Of a stretch of DNA of 42,374 nt, positions 4,440-16,941 are shown in pieces. Every line of letters begins with the position of its first letter. Within the stretch, counting starts at the first letter, position 1. The notes beneath the pieces are model-generated. The model did no database searches and was not told the DNA's origin. It was given only the letters and a program-made list of their open reading frames with translations. Origin of the DNA: Marinilabiliaceae bacterium (GTDB lineage: Bacteria > Bacteroidota > Bacteroidia > Bacteroidales > Marinilabiliaceae); NCBI GenBank assembly GCA_016342595.1, contig JAEINY010000026.1, forward strand, positions 1 to 42,374, in the 5' to 3' direction. The position numbers and the translations under genes are program-made.

Positions 4440-5114
4440 ATGATTAACTGGGGAAAGATAAAAGCTGTGTTCTTTGACATGGACGGTGTGCTGTATGATT
4501 CAATGAAAAATCACGAAAGCACCTGGATAGAGAGCTTTAAACAATACAATATTGACTTACCAGCCTTCGAAGCTTACCTCAATGAGGGGAGAACCGGTAA
4601 TGCAACCATCGATTACGTGTTTCGAAAATACCTCAACAGACCGGCCACCCGGCAAGAACAGGAAGCCGTTTATACCTACAAAACCCAGTTAATAAACCAG
4701 GCACCCAAGGCGGAAATCATGCCGAAGATGCCGGTTCTTCTTTCGTTTTTACGTTCCAAAGGGATTGCGACTTATGTGGTAACGGGCTCACGCCAACCGG
4801 CACTGATTGAGAAATTAAGCCGTGATTTTGACATTGAAGCGAATCAAATTATCTCAGGTGCTGATGTAAAGAAAGGTAAACCGGATCCTGAACCCTATCT
4901 GATGGCATTGGAAAAATCGGGCTTTCAGAAAGAAGAATGCCTGGTAGTTGAAAATGCACCGCTGGGTATTGAAGCGGCCAAGGCAGCCGGTCTTTATACT
5001 ATTGGCGTTAACACGGGCGTTTTAGACGATTCCATCTTGCAGGATGCCGGTACTGATGAATTATTTGATGATACGGCTTCTTTGGCTACACAATGGATGG
5101 AAGCCTTATCCTGA
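4440..5114 (+). CDS. HAD-superfamily phosphatase, beta-phosphoglucomutase-like
   Basis: This 224-aa haloacid-dehalogenase subfamily IA protein has motif I as FFDMDGVLYDS, with nucleophile Asp13 and acid Asp15. Motif II is VVTGSR, motif III is the Lys in KKGKPDPEPY, and motif IV is VENAPLGIEAAKAAG. The helical cap between motifs I and II is of the phosphoglucomutase/phosphatase type. Members dephosphorylate small phosphorylated metabolites such as sugar phosphates, and the substrate here cannot be assigned. It starts 6 nt after the FKBP stop, which suggests cotranscription. The coding sequence runs directly into the 21-nt periodic array. Confidence 0.88.
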   Translation: MINWGKIKAVFFDMDGVLYDSMKNHESTWIESFKQYNIDLPAFEAYLNEGRTGNATIDYVFRKYLNRPATRQEQEAVYTYKTQLINQAPKAEIMPKMPVLLSFLRSKGIATYVVTGSRQPALIEKLSRDFDIEANQIISGADVKKGKPDPEPYLMALEKSGFQKEECLVVENAPLGIEAAKAAGLYTIGVNTGVLDDSILQDAGTDELFDDTASLATQWMEALS

Positions 5115-5128
5115 AACAAGTAATAAAA

Positions 5129-5548
5129 GCTAAGCTGGAGTGAGAAGATCCTCGTTTACAGCGAGCCTCTTCTTACTTGAAATGAGAAAAGGCTAACTAA
5201 AACATAGAAACACCTCACTTCAAGTGAGAATAAGCTAACAAAAAGTGAGGTCATCCTGGAAAAAAGTAAGAACGTTCTCACTTTTTCTTAGGATGTCCTG
5301 GCTTTTTTACCCGAACACCTCGTTTTTTGTCAGAACGTTTTAACACAAAGCGAGGTTATCCTCACTTTTTACCAGAACAACCTCGTTTGGGGCCAGGATA
5401 ATCTCAGAAAAAACACGGATTTCGGTGGAAAACACCAGATGCTTCACTGGTTTTTCAAGCTCTTTCAACAAAAAGGCTACCCGATCCACTCGTTAAAAGA
5501 GAATAGCCACCTAAAAAACTTGATCTTCCTGATTCAAAGTGAATGCTT
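5129..5548. repeat. Array of ~20 degenerate 21-nt units
   Basis: Units recur exactly every 21 nt, with phase positions 5129, 5150, 5171, 5192, 5213, 5234, 5255, 5276, 5297, 5318, 5339, 5360, 5381, 5402 and onward to 5528. The best preserved are CCTCGTTTTTTGTCAGAACG (5318), CCTCACTTTTTACCAGAACA (5360), CCTCGTTTGGGGCCAGGATA (5381), CCTGGCTTTTTTACCCGAAC (5297) and CCTGGAAAAAAGTAAGAACG (5255). The start of each unit is CCT, TCT or GCT, and the centre is often an A or T run. Some units are reversed (5339 reads as CCTCGCTTTGTG on the other strand), and CTCACTTCAAGTGAG (5214-5228) is a perfect short palindrome. No convincing gene overlaps. It lies between the convergent HAD and iorB genes. Confidence 0.8.
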
Positions 5549-12912: not shown

Positions 12913-13887
12913 TTAACTTAAGACCGTTTTATTGACTGGATTATTAGGAACCTTCCCACTAAAGTAATCCTGTATATTTTGAGCCACTACCACCGACATT
13001 TCTTTTCGCGTTTCATGTGTCGCTGTTCCCAAATGCGGCATGAGCACGACATTATGCATATCCAAATAGGCAGCCGGAATATTTGGCTCCTCTTCATACA
13101 CATCTAAACCGGCGCCTGCAATTTCATCATTCTTTAACGCTTCAATTAAAGCCTGTTCATCAACGACCGGCCCACGAGCCGTATTTATTAAGTAAGCAGA
13201 TGGTTTCATCCATTCCAACTGAGGCTTACTGATCAAATGTTTCGTCTCAGGCGTCAGCGGCATATTTAAGGAGACCACATCGGCTGTCTTCAACAACTCC
13301 TCCATAGAAACGTAAGTAGCTTTCAATTCCGCCTCAACCGCTTCATCCACCCTGGTGCGATTGTGGTAAACGATTTCCATGCCTGAAGCGATAGCCCGCC
13401 TTGCCAGGGCTTTGCCGATAGCCCCCATTCCGACAATACCCAAACGTTTACCAACAAGAGTGGTACTCAGGTTACGCATCACCCCCCAGGTTATTTCCCC
13501 TTTGGTCCGCAAGCGATTATTCATTTCACCCATTCGACGAGCGACAGAAATCATTAAGCCCATGGCCAATTCAGCCGTTGGTTCAGTCACGGGATCGGGA
13601 CTATTGGTCACTAAAATACCTTTTGAAGTCGCGTAACTGACATCAATATTATCGAATCCGGCCCCAAAATTGGCAATCATCTTCAATTGTAGGGCGGCAT
13701 CTATCACCTCATTGGTTAATTTATGTCCATACACGGTGACTACAGCATCGCAATCCGCAATTTTCTCTTTCAGCTCCTCCTGGGTGAACGCTTCATTTTC
13801 GGGATAGACCAATTCCCAGTCCGGCAAGATGGCATTAAATCCTTCTTGCGGAATGGCTAACATGATCAGTAATTTATGTTTCTTCAT
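12913..13887 (-). CDS. D-isomer 2-hydroxyacid dehydrogenase (glyoxylate/hydroxypyruvate reductase-like)
   Basis: This 324-aa NAD(P)-dependent dehydrogenase has the two-domain D-2-hydroxyacid dehydrogenase layout. The Rossmann motif is GIVGMGAIGKALARR at about residues 150-165, and the domain linker is ANFGAGFDNID. The catalytic triad is visible as Arg in INTARGPVVDEQAL, Glu in DVYEEEP and His in LMPHLGTATHETR. It probably reduces small 2-oxoacids such as glyoxylate or hydroxypyruvate, but the substrate cannot be fixed from sequence and related keto-acid reductases look alike. It is divergent from the TonB receptor gene across the periodic array, with a near-consensus promoter box (TATCTTTA on the minus strand) at 13910-13917. 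Confidence 0.9.
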   Translation of the reverse strand: MKKHKLLIMLAIPQEGFNAILPDWELVYPENEAFTQEELKEKIADCDAVVTVYGHKLTNEVIDAALQLKMIANFGAGFDNIDVSYATSKGILVTNSPDPVTEPTAELAMGLMISVARRMGEMNNRLRTKGEITWGVMRNLSTTLVGKRLGIVGMGAIGKALARRAIASGMEIVYHNRTRVDEAVEAELKATYVSMEELLKTADVVSLNMPLTPETKHLISKPQLEWMKPSAYLINTARGPVVDEQALIEALKNDEIAGAGLDVYEEEPNIPAAYLDMHNVVLMPHLGTATHETRKEMSVVVAQNIQDYFSGKVPNNPVNKTVLS

Positions 13888-13984: not shown

Positions 13985-14290
13985 TAGCGGGCATTAAAAA
14001 GCCATTGGCGGGGATTTTTTTATTATAGCGGGCGATAAACAACCAATAGCGGAGAATTAATTAGCATAGCGGACTATTTATATCCATAAGCGCGGACTCC
14101 TTATCAAGCAGATACTGCTTCACAGCTGTTGGCGGGCACTTCACAGGCAATAGCGGCGCAACAACAAGCGTTGGCGGACGATAAACAAAGCAATGAAATC
14201 CCCGCCAGAGCATAATGATTTCCCGCTAACGCATAATGACTCTCCGCTCTGCAAAATAAATGTCCGCTAACTGGTATTAAACATCCGCTT
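13985..14290. repeat. 20-21-nt periodic array with strand switch
   Basis: A GC-rich core WTRGCGG recurs in AT-rich surroundings. Plus-strand cores (TAGCGG/TGGCGG) start at 13985, 14006, 14026, 14047, 14067, about 14088 (AAGCGCGG), 14130, 14151 and 14172. Spacing is 20 or 21 nt, with one degenerate position (about 14109). After 14172 the core appears only as its complement CCGCYA/CCGCTY: 14202, 14223, 14244, 14264 and 14285, again 20-21 nt apart. Between cores the sequence varies, for example TAGCGGGCATTAAAAAGCCA and TGGCGGACGATAAACAAAGC. It fills part of a 624-nt divergent spacer and codes for nothing recognisable. Confidence 0.85.
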
Positions 14291-14511: not shown

Positions 14512-16941
14512 ATGAATAAATACGTCTTAATCATTTTTATAGTTCTTCTGTGGTTTCCAGGGGCAAGGCTTTTCGCTCAAGAAAAACATCTGCTTAACGG
14601 TTACGTCACTGATTCTCTCAAACAACCGTTGGAATTTGTAAACATTACGATAAAAGACAGACCCGATGGAACCATCACGGATGACAAAGGACACTTTTCA
14701 TTTGAGACAAAAACACCATTGCCATTCACGGTAATTACTTCATACATTGGATACACTTCCCAAGAGATTGAAATACGGAAGACTGAGCAACTAAAAAACA
14801 TTACCATTGTTTTGATAGCCAAACAAGAAGTCATTGATCAAGTGGAAGTGACTGGTGAAATAAAAGATCAAAGCTTTACCAAGATTGATCCCAAGCTGAT
14901 TAAAGCCCTGCCAGATGCCTCCGGTGGAAATATTGAAGGCCTGGTAAAAAGCCAGATGGGTGTGGCATCTAATAATGAATTAAGTTCGCAATACCGGGTG
15001 CGGGGTGGTAACTACGATGAAAACCTGGTATACGTCAATGACATTGAAATCTATCGCCCCTTCTTAATCCGATCGGGTCAGCAAGAAGGCTTGAGTTTTA
15101 TTAATCCGGATTTAATCTCTTCCTTAAAATTCTCACCTGGTGGTTTCGAAGCTCAATATGGTGATAAGATGTCTTCGGTTTTGGATGTGCGTTACAAACA
15201 GCCCAAAGCGCTTCAAGGAAGTATGCAAGCAAGCCTGCTTGGTGCCTCCGGCCACGTTGAAGGCAGTACAAAAAACGGTAAGCTATCCGCCATAACAGGC
15301 GTTCGCTACAAAACCAACAAATACCTTTTGGGTACTTTGGATGTATCGGGTGATTACAACCCGGTCTTTTTTGATGCCCAATCTTTCATCACTTACACCA
15401 TTAATGAAAATTGGCAACTGGAAGCATTGGGTTACTATTCGCAAAACGCTTATGATTTTGAGCCGGTAGATCGCGAAACAGTATTTGGTACCATTCAGGA
15501 AGCAAAAAAACTAAAAGTGTTTTTTGAAGGTCAGGAAAAAGACTTGTTTCAAACCGGATTGGGGGCCGTTTCGATCAAACACATGCCTGATGTCGCCAAT
15601 CAATACAAGCTTACCGCCTCGGGGTATCGCACGTATGAAGAGGAAACCTATGATATTTTAGGGCAATACTGGTTGCAGGACATCGAATCAACGGAAAGCG
15701 AGCCGGTAACTGCGGTTGACGGTATTCAAAACATCGGTGTCGGCAGTCACCTTGAACATGCCCGCAACGACTTATTGGGCATCATTCAAAACGTGGCTTT
15801 TCAAGGCAAACATCAATTAAACGACCACCTTCTCACCTGGGAAGTAAAGTATCAGCATGAACAATTTAAAGATCATCTGAACGAATGGGAAATGCGTGAT
15901 TCAGCTGGTTATTCACTTCCCCATTCCGACAAGGAAGTCAAACTGGTCTATTCTTACAATGCCGATCTGGAAACCAACAGTAATCGAATCACCGCTTATC
16001 TTCAGGATGAATACAGGTGGCAACTGACCAATGGGACCCTTTTGGTGAACGGTGGTGTCCGAATCAATCATTGGGATTTCAACAATGAGTTTTTAATTAG
16101 TCCGCGCCTTAACTTGCTGTATTACCCTGCGGGCAATAAAAATAATCGCTACCGCTTTGCCACCGGCATCTATTACCAGTCGCCTTTATACAAGGAGCTA
16201 CGCACACCGGATGGAGCACTAAATCATGATATTAAAGCTCAAAAGTCCTATCAATTAGTGGGGGGATATGATTACATTTTTGATGTGAACGGGCGTCCGT
16301 TTAAATTCACCACCGAAGCTTATTATAAGTATATGACCGACCTCATCCCGTATCAGGTTGATAACGTCAGAATCCGCTACTCCGGCAAAAACAACGCGAA
16401 AGGTTATGCTGCTGGTATTGATTTAAAACTACACGGTGAATTTGTTCCCGGTGTTGAATCCTGGGCCAATTTGTCCTTCATGAAAACGGCGGAAGACCTG
16501 GAAGATGATTTCTATATAGATGGAGAAGGAAATACTGTTTATCCGGGTTACATTCCAAGACCATCGGATCAGCGGGTGAATTTCTCCCTCTTTTTTCAGG
16601 ATTATATGCCCAGTAATCCCACCTTTAAAGTACACCTGAACTTATTGTATGGGACCGGATTACCATTTGGCCCACCGCAATCGCCCCGATACAAAGCGAC
16701 CAATCGCATGCCAGCCTATCGTCGTGTCGACATTGGTTTCTCCAAAGACCTGCGAGGCCGACGCCCTAATCCCAATAGTTTCATAAAAGATTGCTGGTTG
16801 GGTGTGGAGATCTTTAACCTCTTTGATATAAATAATACCATCTCCTACTTTTGGATATCGGATGTTCACAACCGGCAATATGCCGTTCCCAATTATCTCA
16901 CATCCCGCCGCTTTAACGTGAAGTTATCGGCTGCATTTTAG
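14512..16941 (+). CDS. TonB-dependent outer-membrane receptor with carboxypeptidase-regulatory-like domain
   Basis: This 809-aa protein has a signal peptide (residues 1-22, IIFIVLLWFPGARLFAQ). A CarboxypepD_reg-like beta-sandwich spans about residues 27-105 (LNGYVTDSLKQPLEFVNITI; GYTSQEIEI). The plug domain is at about 110-230 (GNIEGLVKSQMGVASNNELS; YRVRGGNYDENLVYVNDIEI; GFEAQYGDKMSSVLDVRY). A 22-strand-type barrel follows and ends in FNVKLSAAF with a terminal aromatic. It imports an unknown ligand across the outer membrane using TonB energy. There is no SusD-like partner next to it, so this is not a typical polysaccharide-utilisation pair. Siderophore, vitamin, peptide or glycan ligands all remain possible. 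Confidence 0.92.
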   Translation: MNKYVLIIFIVLLWFPGARLFAQEKHLLNGYVTDSLKQPLEFVNITIKDRPDGTITDDKGHFSFETKTPLPFTVITSYIGYTSQEIEIRKTEQLKNITIVLIAKQEVIDQVEVTGEIKDQSFTKIDPKLIKALPDASGGNIEGLVKSQMGVASNNELSSQYRVRGGNYDENLVYVNDIEIYRPFLIRSGQQEGLSFINPDLISSLKFSPGGFEAQYGDKMSSVLDVRYKQPKALQGSMQASLLGASGHVEGSTKNGKLSAITGVRYKTNKYLLGTLDVSGDYNPVFFDAQSFITYTINENWQLEALGYYSQNAYDFEPVDRETVFGTIQEAKKLKVFFEGQEKDLFQTGLGAVSIKHMPDVANQYKLTASGYRTYEEETYDILGQYWLQDIESTESEPVTAVDGIQNIGVGSHLEHARNDLLGIIQNVAFQGKHQLNDHLLTWEVKYQHEQFKDHLNEWEMRDSAGYSLPHSDKEVKLVYSYNADLETNSNRITAYLQDEYRWQLTNGTLLVNGGVRINHWDFNNEFLISPRLNLLYYPAGNKNNRYRFATGIYYQSPLYKELRTPDGALNHDIKAQKSYQLVGGYDYIFDVNGRPFKFTTEAYYKYMTDLIPYQVDNVRIRYSGKNNAKGYAAGIDLKLHGEFVPGVESWANLSFMKTAEDLEDDFYIDGEGNTVYPGYIPRPSDQRVNFSLFFQDYMPSNPTFKVHLNLLYGTGLPFGPPQSPRYKATNRMPAYRRVDIGFSKDLRGRRPNPNSFIKDCWLGVEIFNLFDINNTISYFWISDVHNRQYAVPNYLTSRRFNVKLSAAF

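Follow-up and report, generated by a model that had tools for sequence, protein, structure and literature searches.

The window, by which we mean the whole stretch of 42,374 nucleotides analysed here, contains an array of fourteen short cores between two genes, and this array is a real and recurrent element. The fourteen cores form one head-to-head array, which we tentatively read, from comparison of the sequences, as the set of sites for a putative DNA-binding protein. The source genome comes as an assembly of 461 contigs, with a completeness of 98.99 and a contamination of 6.04, and is related to Carboxylicivirga and other Marinilabiliaceae.

An earlier sequence-only reading had described nine plus-strand cores followed by five minus-strand cores, mostly 20-21 nt apart and with one degenerate unit, and our analysis confirmed this description. 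On the plus strand, GCGG starts at 13987, 14008, 14028, 14049, 14069, 14092, 14132, 14153 and 14174, giving steps of 21, 20, 21, 20, 23, 40, 21 and 21 nt, in which the 40-nt step represents one degenerate unit near 14112. The minus-strand cores, visible as CCGC, start at 14202, 14223, 14244, 14264 and 14285; the step across the strand switch is 28 nt, and the steps then are 21, 21, 20 and 21 nt. Eight of the nine plus-strand cores fit WRGCGG (the exception is CGCGG at 14092), and CCGCY is found in all five minus-strand cores, three of which read CCGCYA. The parts of the array and its neighbours are as follows:

12913..13887, minus strand: left neighbour, D-isomer specific 2-hydroxyacid dehydrogenase (PF02826, E 2.2e-60; PF00389)
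13985..14112, plus strand: left arm, outer part, with six cores (13987-14092) and the degenerate unit near 14112; EM consensus TAGCGGGcAaTtaATAaCCAA
14130..14177, plus strand: left arm, inner part, with three cores (14132, 14153, 14174)
14178..14201, no strand: centre, 24 nt from the last GCGG to the first CCGC
14202..14290, minus strand: right arm, with five CCGC cores; EM consensus AGCGGAnATTTATTATGCnTT, read on the minus strand
14512..16941, plus strand: right neighbour, receptor with CarboxypepD_reg-like and TonB plug domains (PF13715, PF07715)

Ten pairs of like cores lay 20-22 nt apart, compared with a mean of 0.06 and a maximum of 3 in 20,000 dinucleotide shuffles, none of which equalled the window array, so that the periodicity was far beyond the shuffled controls that had been proposed as a check. 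The autocorrelation z scores at lags 21 and 41 were 7.0 and 5.9, respectively, with lags 7 and 14 absent among the ten top lags. The suggestion that all cores lie on one face of the DNA can hold inside an arm; across the switch, however, the step of 28 nt (~2.7 turns) means that the two arms do not have a common helix face. Likewise, the sequence between the cores was said to vary, and the units are indeed degenerate, but this sequence is not free: in 73 of 87 units from seven arrays, called by anchoring on the core, a T stood 8 nt past the first G of the core.

The placement of the array between divergent dehydrogenase and TonB receptor genes was borne out by the Pfam scan. In strain N1Y90 (L036) the same two genes are also divergent, and are separated by a 259-nt spacer without the array, as against 624 nt in the window; in G019 the two are separated by a Fic-like gene and a small gene (read by eye), and no array is present there either. 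The remaining loci around this gene pair (L009-L036, L089) had no chain of three GCGG or CCGC cores. At this locus the array appears to be young or easily lost. Comparison with close relatives, which had been suggested as a possible refutation, gave a divided answer: the array is absent at the orthologous locus, yet the same architecture is present elsewhere in these relatives.

Recurrence of the layout in the family

Twelve further places, spread over seven family genomes (the window's own included), showed the same motif and geometry, usually with a core AGCGR and a T-block. Together with the window array (G000 C422), the thirteen head-to-head arrays are G000 C209 and C36; G050 C1, C13, C53 and C76; G068 C150 and C176; G011 C135; G019 C68; G049 C66; and G021 C55, which has the core AGAAGA. 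Three of them (G050 C53, G068 C176 and G021 C55) adjoin relatives of one gene, and the 12 places therefore represent about ten other loci. A three-core, one-arm pattern that specified no centre matched 13 of 71 family genomes, some of these matches being coding or heptamer-like. Seven look-alike loci were inspected, of which five had plus units followed by minus units (G011:C135, G019:C68, G050:C13, G068:C150 and G068:C176), and in these five and the window the centre step was 28 nt throughout. The other two, both in G018 (L136 ~1150-1480 and L137 1-340), are one-way tandem arrays in which TAGCGGGCATCCGGnACTCGT is repeated nearly perfectly every 21 nt.

A four-core pattern with a 28-nt centre step matched 5 of 71 genomes (reversed control, 1), and with the core AGCGR it matched 6 of 71 (reversed control, 0). 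When the centre was left free between 10 and 40 nt, all five matching rows (four arrays) had 24 nt between cores; as the reversed control of this pattern matched seven genomes once each, only the constant centre length is informative. A profile of sequence only (R1) found further arrays, some with changed cores; it was built from arrays with a 28-nt centre step, and the four-core patterns likewise have the centre built in. Of the 13 head-to-head arrays, 12 had a centre step of 28 nt and one, G050 C1, had a step of 27 nt. A fourteenth strand-switched array, G000:C25 (L231 5401-5750, core AGCGAA), which came from a core-free periodicity scan of the window's own genome, has a different second block and a centre step of 33 nt, for which reason the centre is nearly, not wholly, constant: it measures 24 nt in 12 of the 14 strand-switched arrays, and 23 and 29 nt in the others. 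In G011, a single place matched the patterns and the profile. Outside the family, no convincing match was found in 393 genomes of the order and 395 of the phylum.

According to ORF lists, the genes flanking the 12 arrays that are readable on both sides are divergent in three cases, convergent in three and tandem in six. This mixture of orientations is evidence against a promoter operator or a terminator, and both roles are disfavoured.

Other arrays with a period near 21 nt

The core-free periodicity scan covered 442 kb of the window's own genome (20 stretches and the window) and found 18 periodic places outside long open frames, of which 14 had lags of 20-22 nt or about double; shuffled sequence gave no windows in the same scan. 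The window supplies three of the 14, one of them a heptamer repeat (2701-2981), leaving 11 in 399 kb without the window, and the units are mostly unlike from array to array. The same scan found three arrays in 400 kb of G054, two in 200 kb of G050, one in 115 kb of Carboxylicivirga-type loci (the heptamer repeat of L026) and four in 629 kb of other Bacteroidota loci, and none in G058 (200 kb), G067 (100 kb), G039 (200 kb) or E. coli (50 kb). In 400 kb of G047, scanned at a lower threshold, there were three arrays with z of at least 5.3, one of which is the array linked to the ~230-aa gene described below. The window array is thus one member of a crowded class of ~21-nt arrays, within which constraint shows most clearly in the AGCG head-to-head family.

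Several members of the class deserve separate mention. At 5110-5420 of the window, between convergent genes, is a second and unrelated 21-nt array of the type AGTGAG..CTCACTT, with a direct z of 8.3 at lag 63 and further signal at lags 21 and 42; the repeat at 2701-2981 is of heptamer type (TTAGCTN, then GTTCACT), with 14/21-nt periodicity. Two arrays of G054 (L250 9500-9750 and L258 4830-5080) have another motif in common, approximately TGMCGGAAAATSATT as judged by eye, along with a strand switch, and may form a second head-to-head family. G365:C325 (L154), from a different family of the order, carries a one-way 21-nt array of GCGGATGCCGCTGATGnACGT. Comparable 21-nt arrays of GCGGACA may occur in Bacillota, as spurious open frames with LSA-type heptads in Bacillus would suggest.

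Beside the ODP-flavodoxin gene, G011 has an AGCGGA array, G051 (L307) has an unrelated 21-nt array (z 9.9, unit approximately GATCACTACGTTTTTTAAAAT) and G050 shows a weak signal further off (z 5.3). The other 11 of the 14 congeners had no array at this locus (best z of 3.9 or less, with only 164 nt readable in G048). The gene on the far side is the same as in G011, as judged by eye, only in G045, G046, G047 and G052, and the spacer is short there.

Unit conservation and competing explanations

In order to compare the units with the products of tandem duplication and even decay, we realigned them without core anchoring (EM) and simulated this process; the 12 AGCG-type arrays have 24 arms, and the simulation covered 18 of them. 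In 15 of these 18 arms, the excess seen in the best six contiguous columns was attained by no matched simulation; the exceptions, which were not separated from neutral decay, were the left arms of C209 (0.38), C36 (0.07) and G050 C1 (0.13). For the window, the difference between core and rest was attained by none of 31 matched simulations of the left arm and none of 36 of the right. By a second statistic, the spread of column identity, 8 of the 18 arms passed 0.05, and the right arm of the window (0.03) differed from the left (0.45, not separated). Twelve other arrays were also simulated, with values of 0.00 in C21 and G021 and of 0.03 in C25, C49, C57, G053a and G052. Outside the core, unit identity was 0.43 between neighbours in an arm, 0.40 between left and right arms, 0.40 between different arrays of one genome and 0.35 between different genomes, against 0.28 by chance (12 arrays; G021, with its different core, was omitted). 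These identities fit a motif shared across a genome better than local copying alone. The arrays are also distinct from CRISPR arrays, which have near-identical repeats of 20-50 nt with spacers; the conserved block here is about 6 nt and the units are degenerate.

These results bear most directly on the main rival to binding sites, a functionless minisatellite in which replication slippage or template switching makes ~21-bp copies and flips one arm, after which the copies decay. We consider this explanation possible, if somewhat improbable, and such a process may have started such arrays. It agrees with the abundance of non-coding ~21/42-nt arrays with mostly unrelated units in the window's own genome, with the longer repeats that span two or three units each (higher-order lags 41, 42 and 63), with the different units of the 21-nt arrays that 2 of 14 congeners have beside one gene, and with a centre that is not invariant. 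It agrees too with five of the twelve other arrays (win5k, C13, C36a, C45 and G047), in which the core statistic was not separated from decay, being attained by 0.20-0.65 of the simulations. What it does not predict is that 15 of 18 AGCG-type arms should show contiguous core conservation that exceeds the neutral level, that units of different arrays in one genome should match as well as the two arms of one array, or that the centre step should be 28 nt in 12 of 14 strand-switched arrays. The residue of a repeat-making process, which the sequence-only reading had offered as one of two explanations, may therefore still account for the array, since the genome has other ~21-nt arrays, with mostly unrelated units, and several of these are indistinguishable from neutral decay.

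The inverted layout could also reflect a long RNA or DNA hairpin, with paired arms as the functional form. The cores are complementary by construction, the folds of G011 (z -5.6) and G068:C176 (z -4.6) beat all 200 shuffles, and 4 of 18 consensus pairs were changed on both sides; the window's own fold, however, reached a z of just -1.9, with 5 of 100 shuffles folding equally well, and the window had no Rfam match at the gathering threshold. Across 13 arrays, mirrored and non-mirrored units were equally alike at variable positions (0.397 and 0.397, p=0.495), and the covariation term for arm pairing was unfavourable (+0.47). The inverted layout thus resembles oriented sites and not a stem, and we regard a hairpin as very improbable. 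Scarcely more probable is that the array is what remains of a mobile element that had an array of transposase-binding sites at either end and has lost its cargo. The ends of Tn7 and Mu carry such arrays, with fewer sites per arm than the window array. The arms point inward as two ends would, the copies are dispersed and the array is missing from orthologous spacers, but the nearly constant 24-nt centre is not expected from cargo loss, and a BLAST search of the window's own genome (E 0.001) returned the array as its single DNA match, with no second copy. No Pfam transposase family was present among the five window genes scanned.

Of the explanations weighed, the other one that the sequence-only reading had offered, a phased protein-binding array, survives best: the arms fail to pair, the core is conserved in most arms and the geometry recurs. 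We infer protein binding itself, as well as its cooperativity and its role. The tests favour binding sites over a hairpin, given the equal likeness of mirrored and other units of the arms; over a decaying minisatellite they do so less firmly, on the basis of core conservation and of the equal likeness between arrays and between arms. Observations that speak against a binding array include the 33-nt step of C25, the spread of column identity, which separates just 8 of 18 arms from decay, the single matching place in G011, the slightly greater likeness of neighbouring than of distant units, as duplication would give, and the ~21-nt arrays with unrelated units in the window's own genome, which go beyond what one protein explains. 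Under the binding-array reading, each 21-bp unit, two helical turns long, would hold one copy of the protein on the same DNA face, and the protein would read AGCGR together with the T-block ~8 bp further on; as the arms face each other around the 24-nt centre, two rows of protein would meet with dyad symmetry. As the layout occurs at many loci, between genes of all orientations, a role in DNA structure or in the marking of intergenic sites would be more likely for such a complex than that of an ordinary promoter operator. The best reading of the sequences is that the binding preference of the putative protein would be lineage-specific.

An associated gene family and related repeat systems

The gene whose relatives adjoin 3 of the 13 head-to-head arrays encodes a protein of ~230 amino acids that matched no Pfam family at E 0.001 and showed weak NCBIfam similarity, far below the cut-off, to the 'PQLLE family' (all five copies tested). 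It occurs as 12 copies in 10 of the 71 family genomes. A ~21-nt periodic stretch (lags 21, 42 or 62; z of at least 4.8) lies within 560 nt upstream of 11 of the 12 copies, the exception being the copy in G043, of which 114 residues are covered, close to the end of a contig. A similar upstream signal was seen for 25 of 360 other genes from four genomes, in a comparison that used 30 as against 60 shuffles per window and in which upstream stretches may include coding DNA. One could therefore suppose, on the strength of this association, that the arrays belong to the system of this protein family and that the window array is a distant satellite of it, which we think quite unlikely. The copies are related, so that the 11 of 12 are not independent, and the core of the upstream arrays differs between genomes; the copy in the window's own genome (G000:C60, 31% identity) has a different upstream unit, as judged by eye. 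The gene-linked core of G047 occurred elsewhere, over 400 kb of sampled sequence, in just five isolated pairs and in no array. The protein was modelled with confidence as a helical bundle (pLDDT 88.8), for which structural comparison gave no telling match, and 8 of 11 copies are acidic (pI 5.1-6.3). The link between gene and arrays is an association only, and we treat it as a lead, not as proof.

A broader proposal can also be made. Some Bacteroidota chromosomes may possess a genome-wide system of many phased intergenic arrays with two-turn units, a subset of them head-to-head around a set centre, in which the recognised sequence turns over between lineages; this would imply either a DNA-organising protein co-evolving fast with its site or an array-writing activity that keeps a fixed step and is indifferent to sequence, and the ~230-aa family would be the resident gene. 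We hold this proposal to be unlikely.

Among known systems, the iterons of plasmid replication origins are arrays of ~20-22 bp sites in helical phase, replicon-specific and next to a gene. The arrays described here, including that of the window, similarly have gene-adjacent phased sites of ~20-22 bp that are specific to a lineage, but unlike iterons they number several per genome (four found in G050) and have inverted arms, a nearly constant centre and no Rep gene among the neighbours scanned; by Pfam, the genes adjacent to the window array are the 2-hydroxyacid dehydrogenase and the receptor with a TonB plug domain, and not a Rep initiator. The REP/BIME sequences of enterobacteria are dispersed intergenic repeats in paired orientations with palindromic units of ~35 nt. 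The present arrays are also dispersed, intergenic and paired in orientation, but their cores are short, non-palindromic, spaced by 21 nt and variable between lineages. The heptamer repeats of these genomes, which we take to be STRR-like, include TTAGCGG in G086 and C. marina, like the window core, although no such short lag is among the ten top lags of the window array. Borg elements contain pervasive tandem repeats, intergenic among other places, of independent origins and fast evolution (PMC9879509). The present arrays resemble them in these respects and differ in their degenerate units with a conserved core, the period of ~21 nt, the inverted arms and the bacterial host genome. No description of such arrays was found in the literature searched.

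If a protein binds these arrays, its preference would shift between close genera as the spacing and symmetry of its sites stay nearly fixed, which would be unusual for a bacterial chromosome. If none does, there would be a repeat-making process whose step is close to two helical turns, and that process would need an enzyme. Either way, such arrays are frequent between the genes of this genome.
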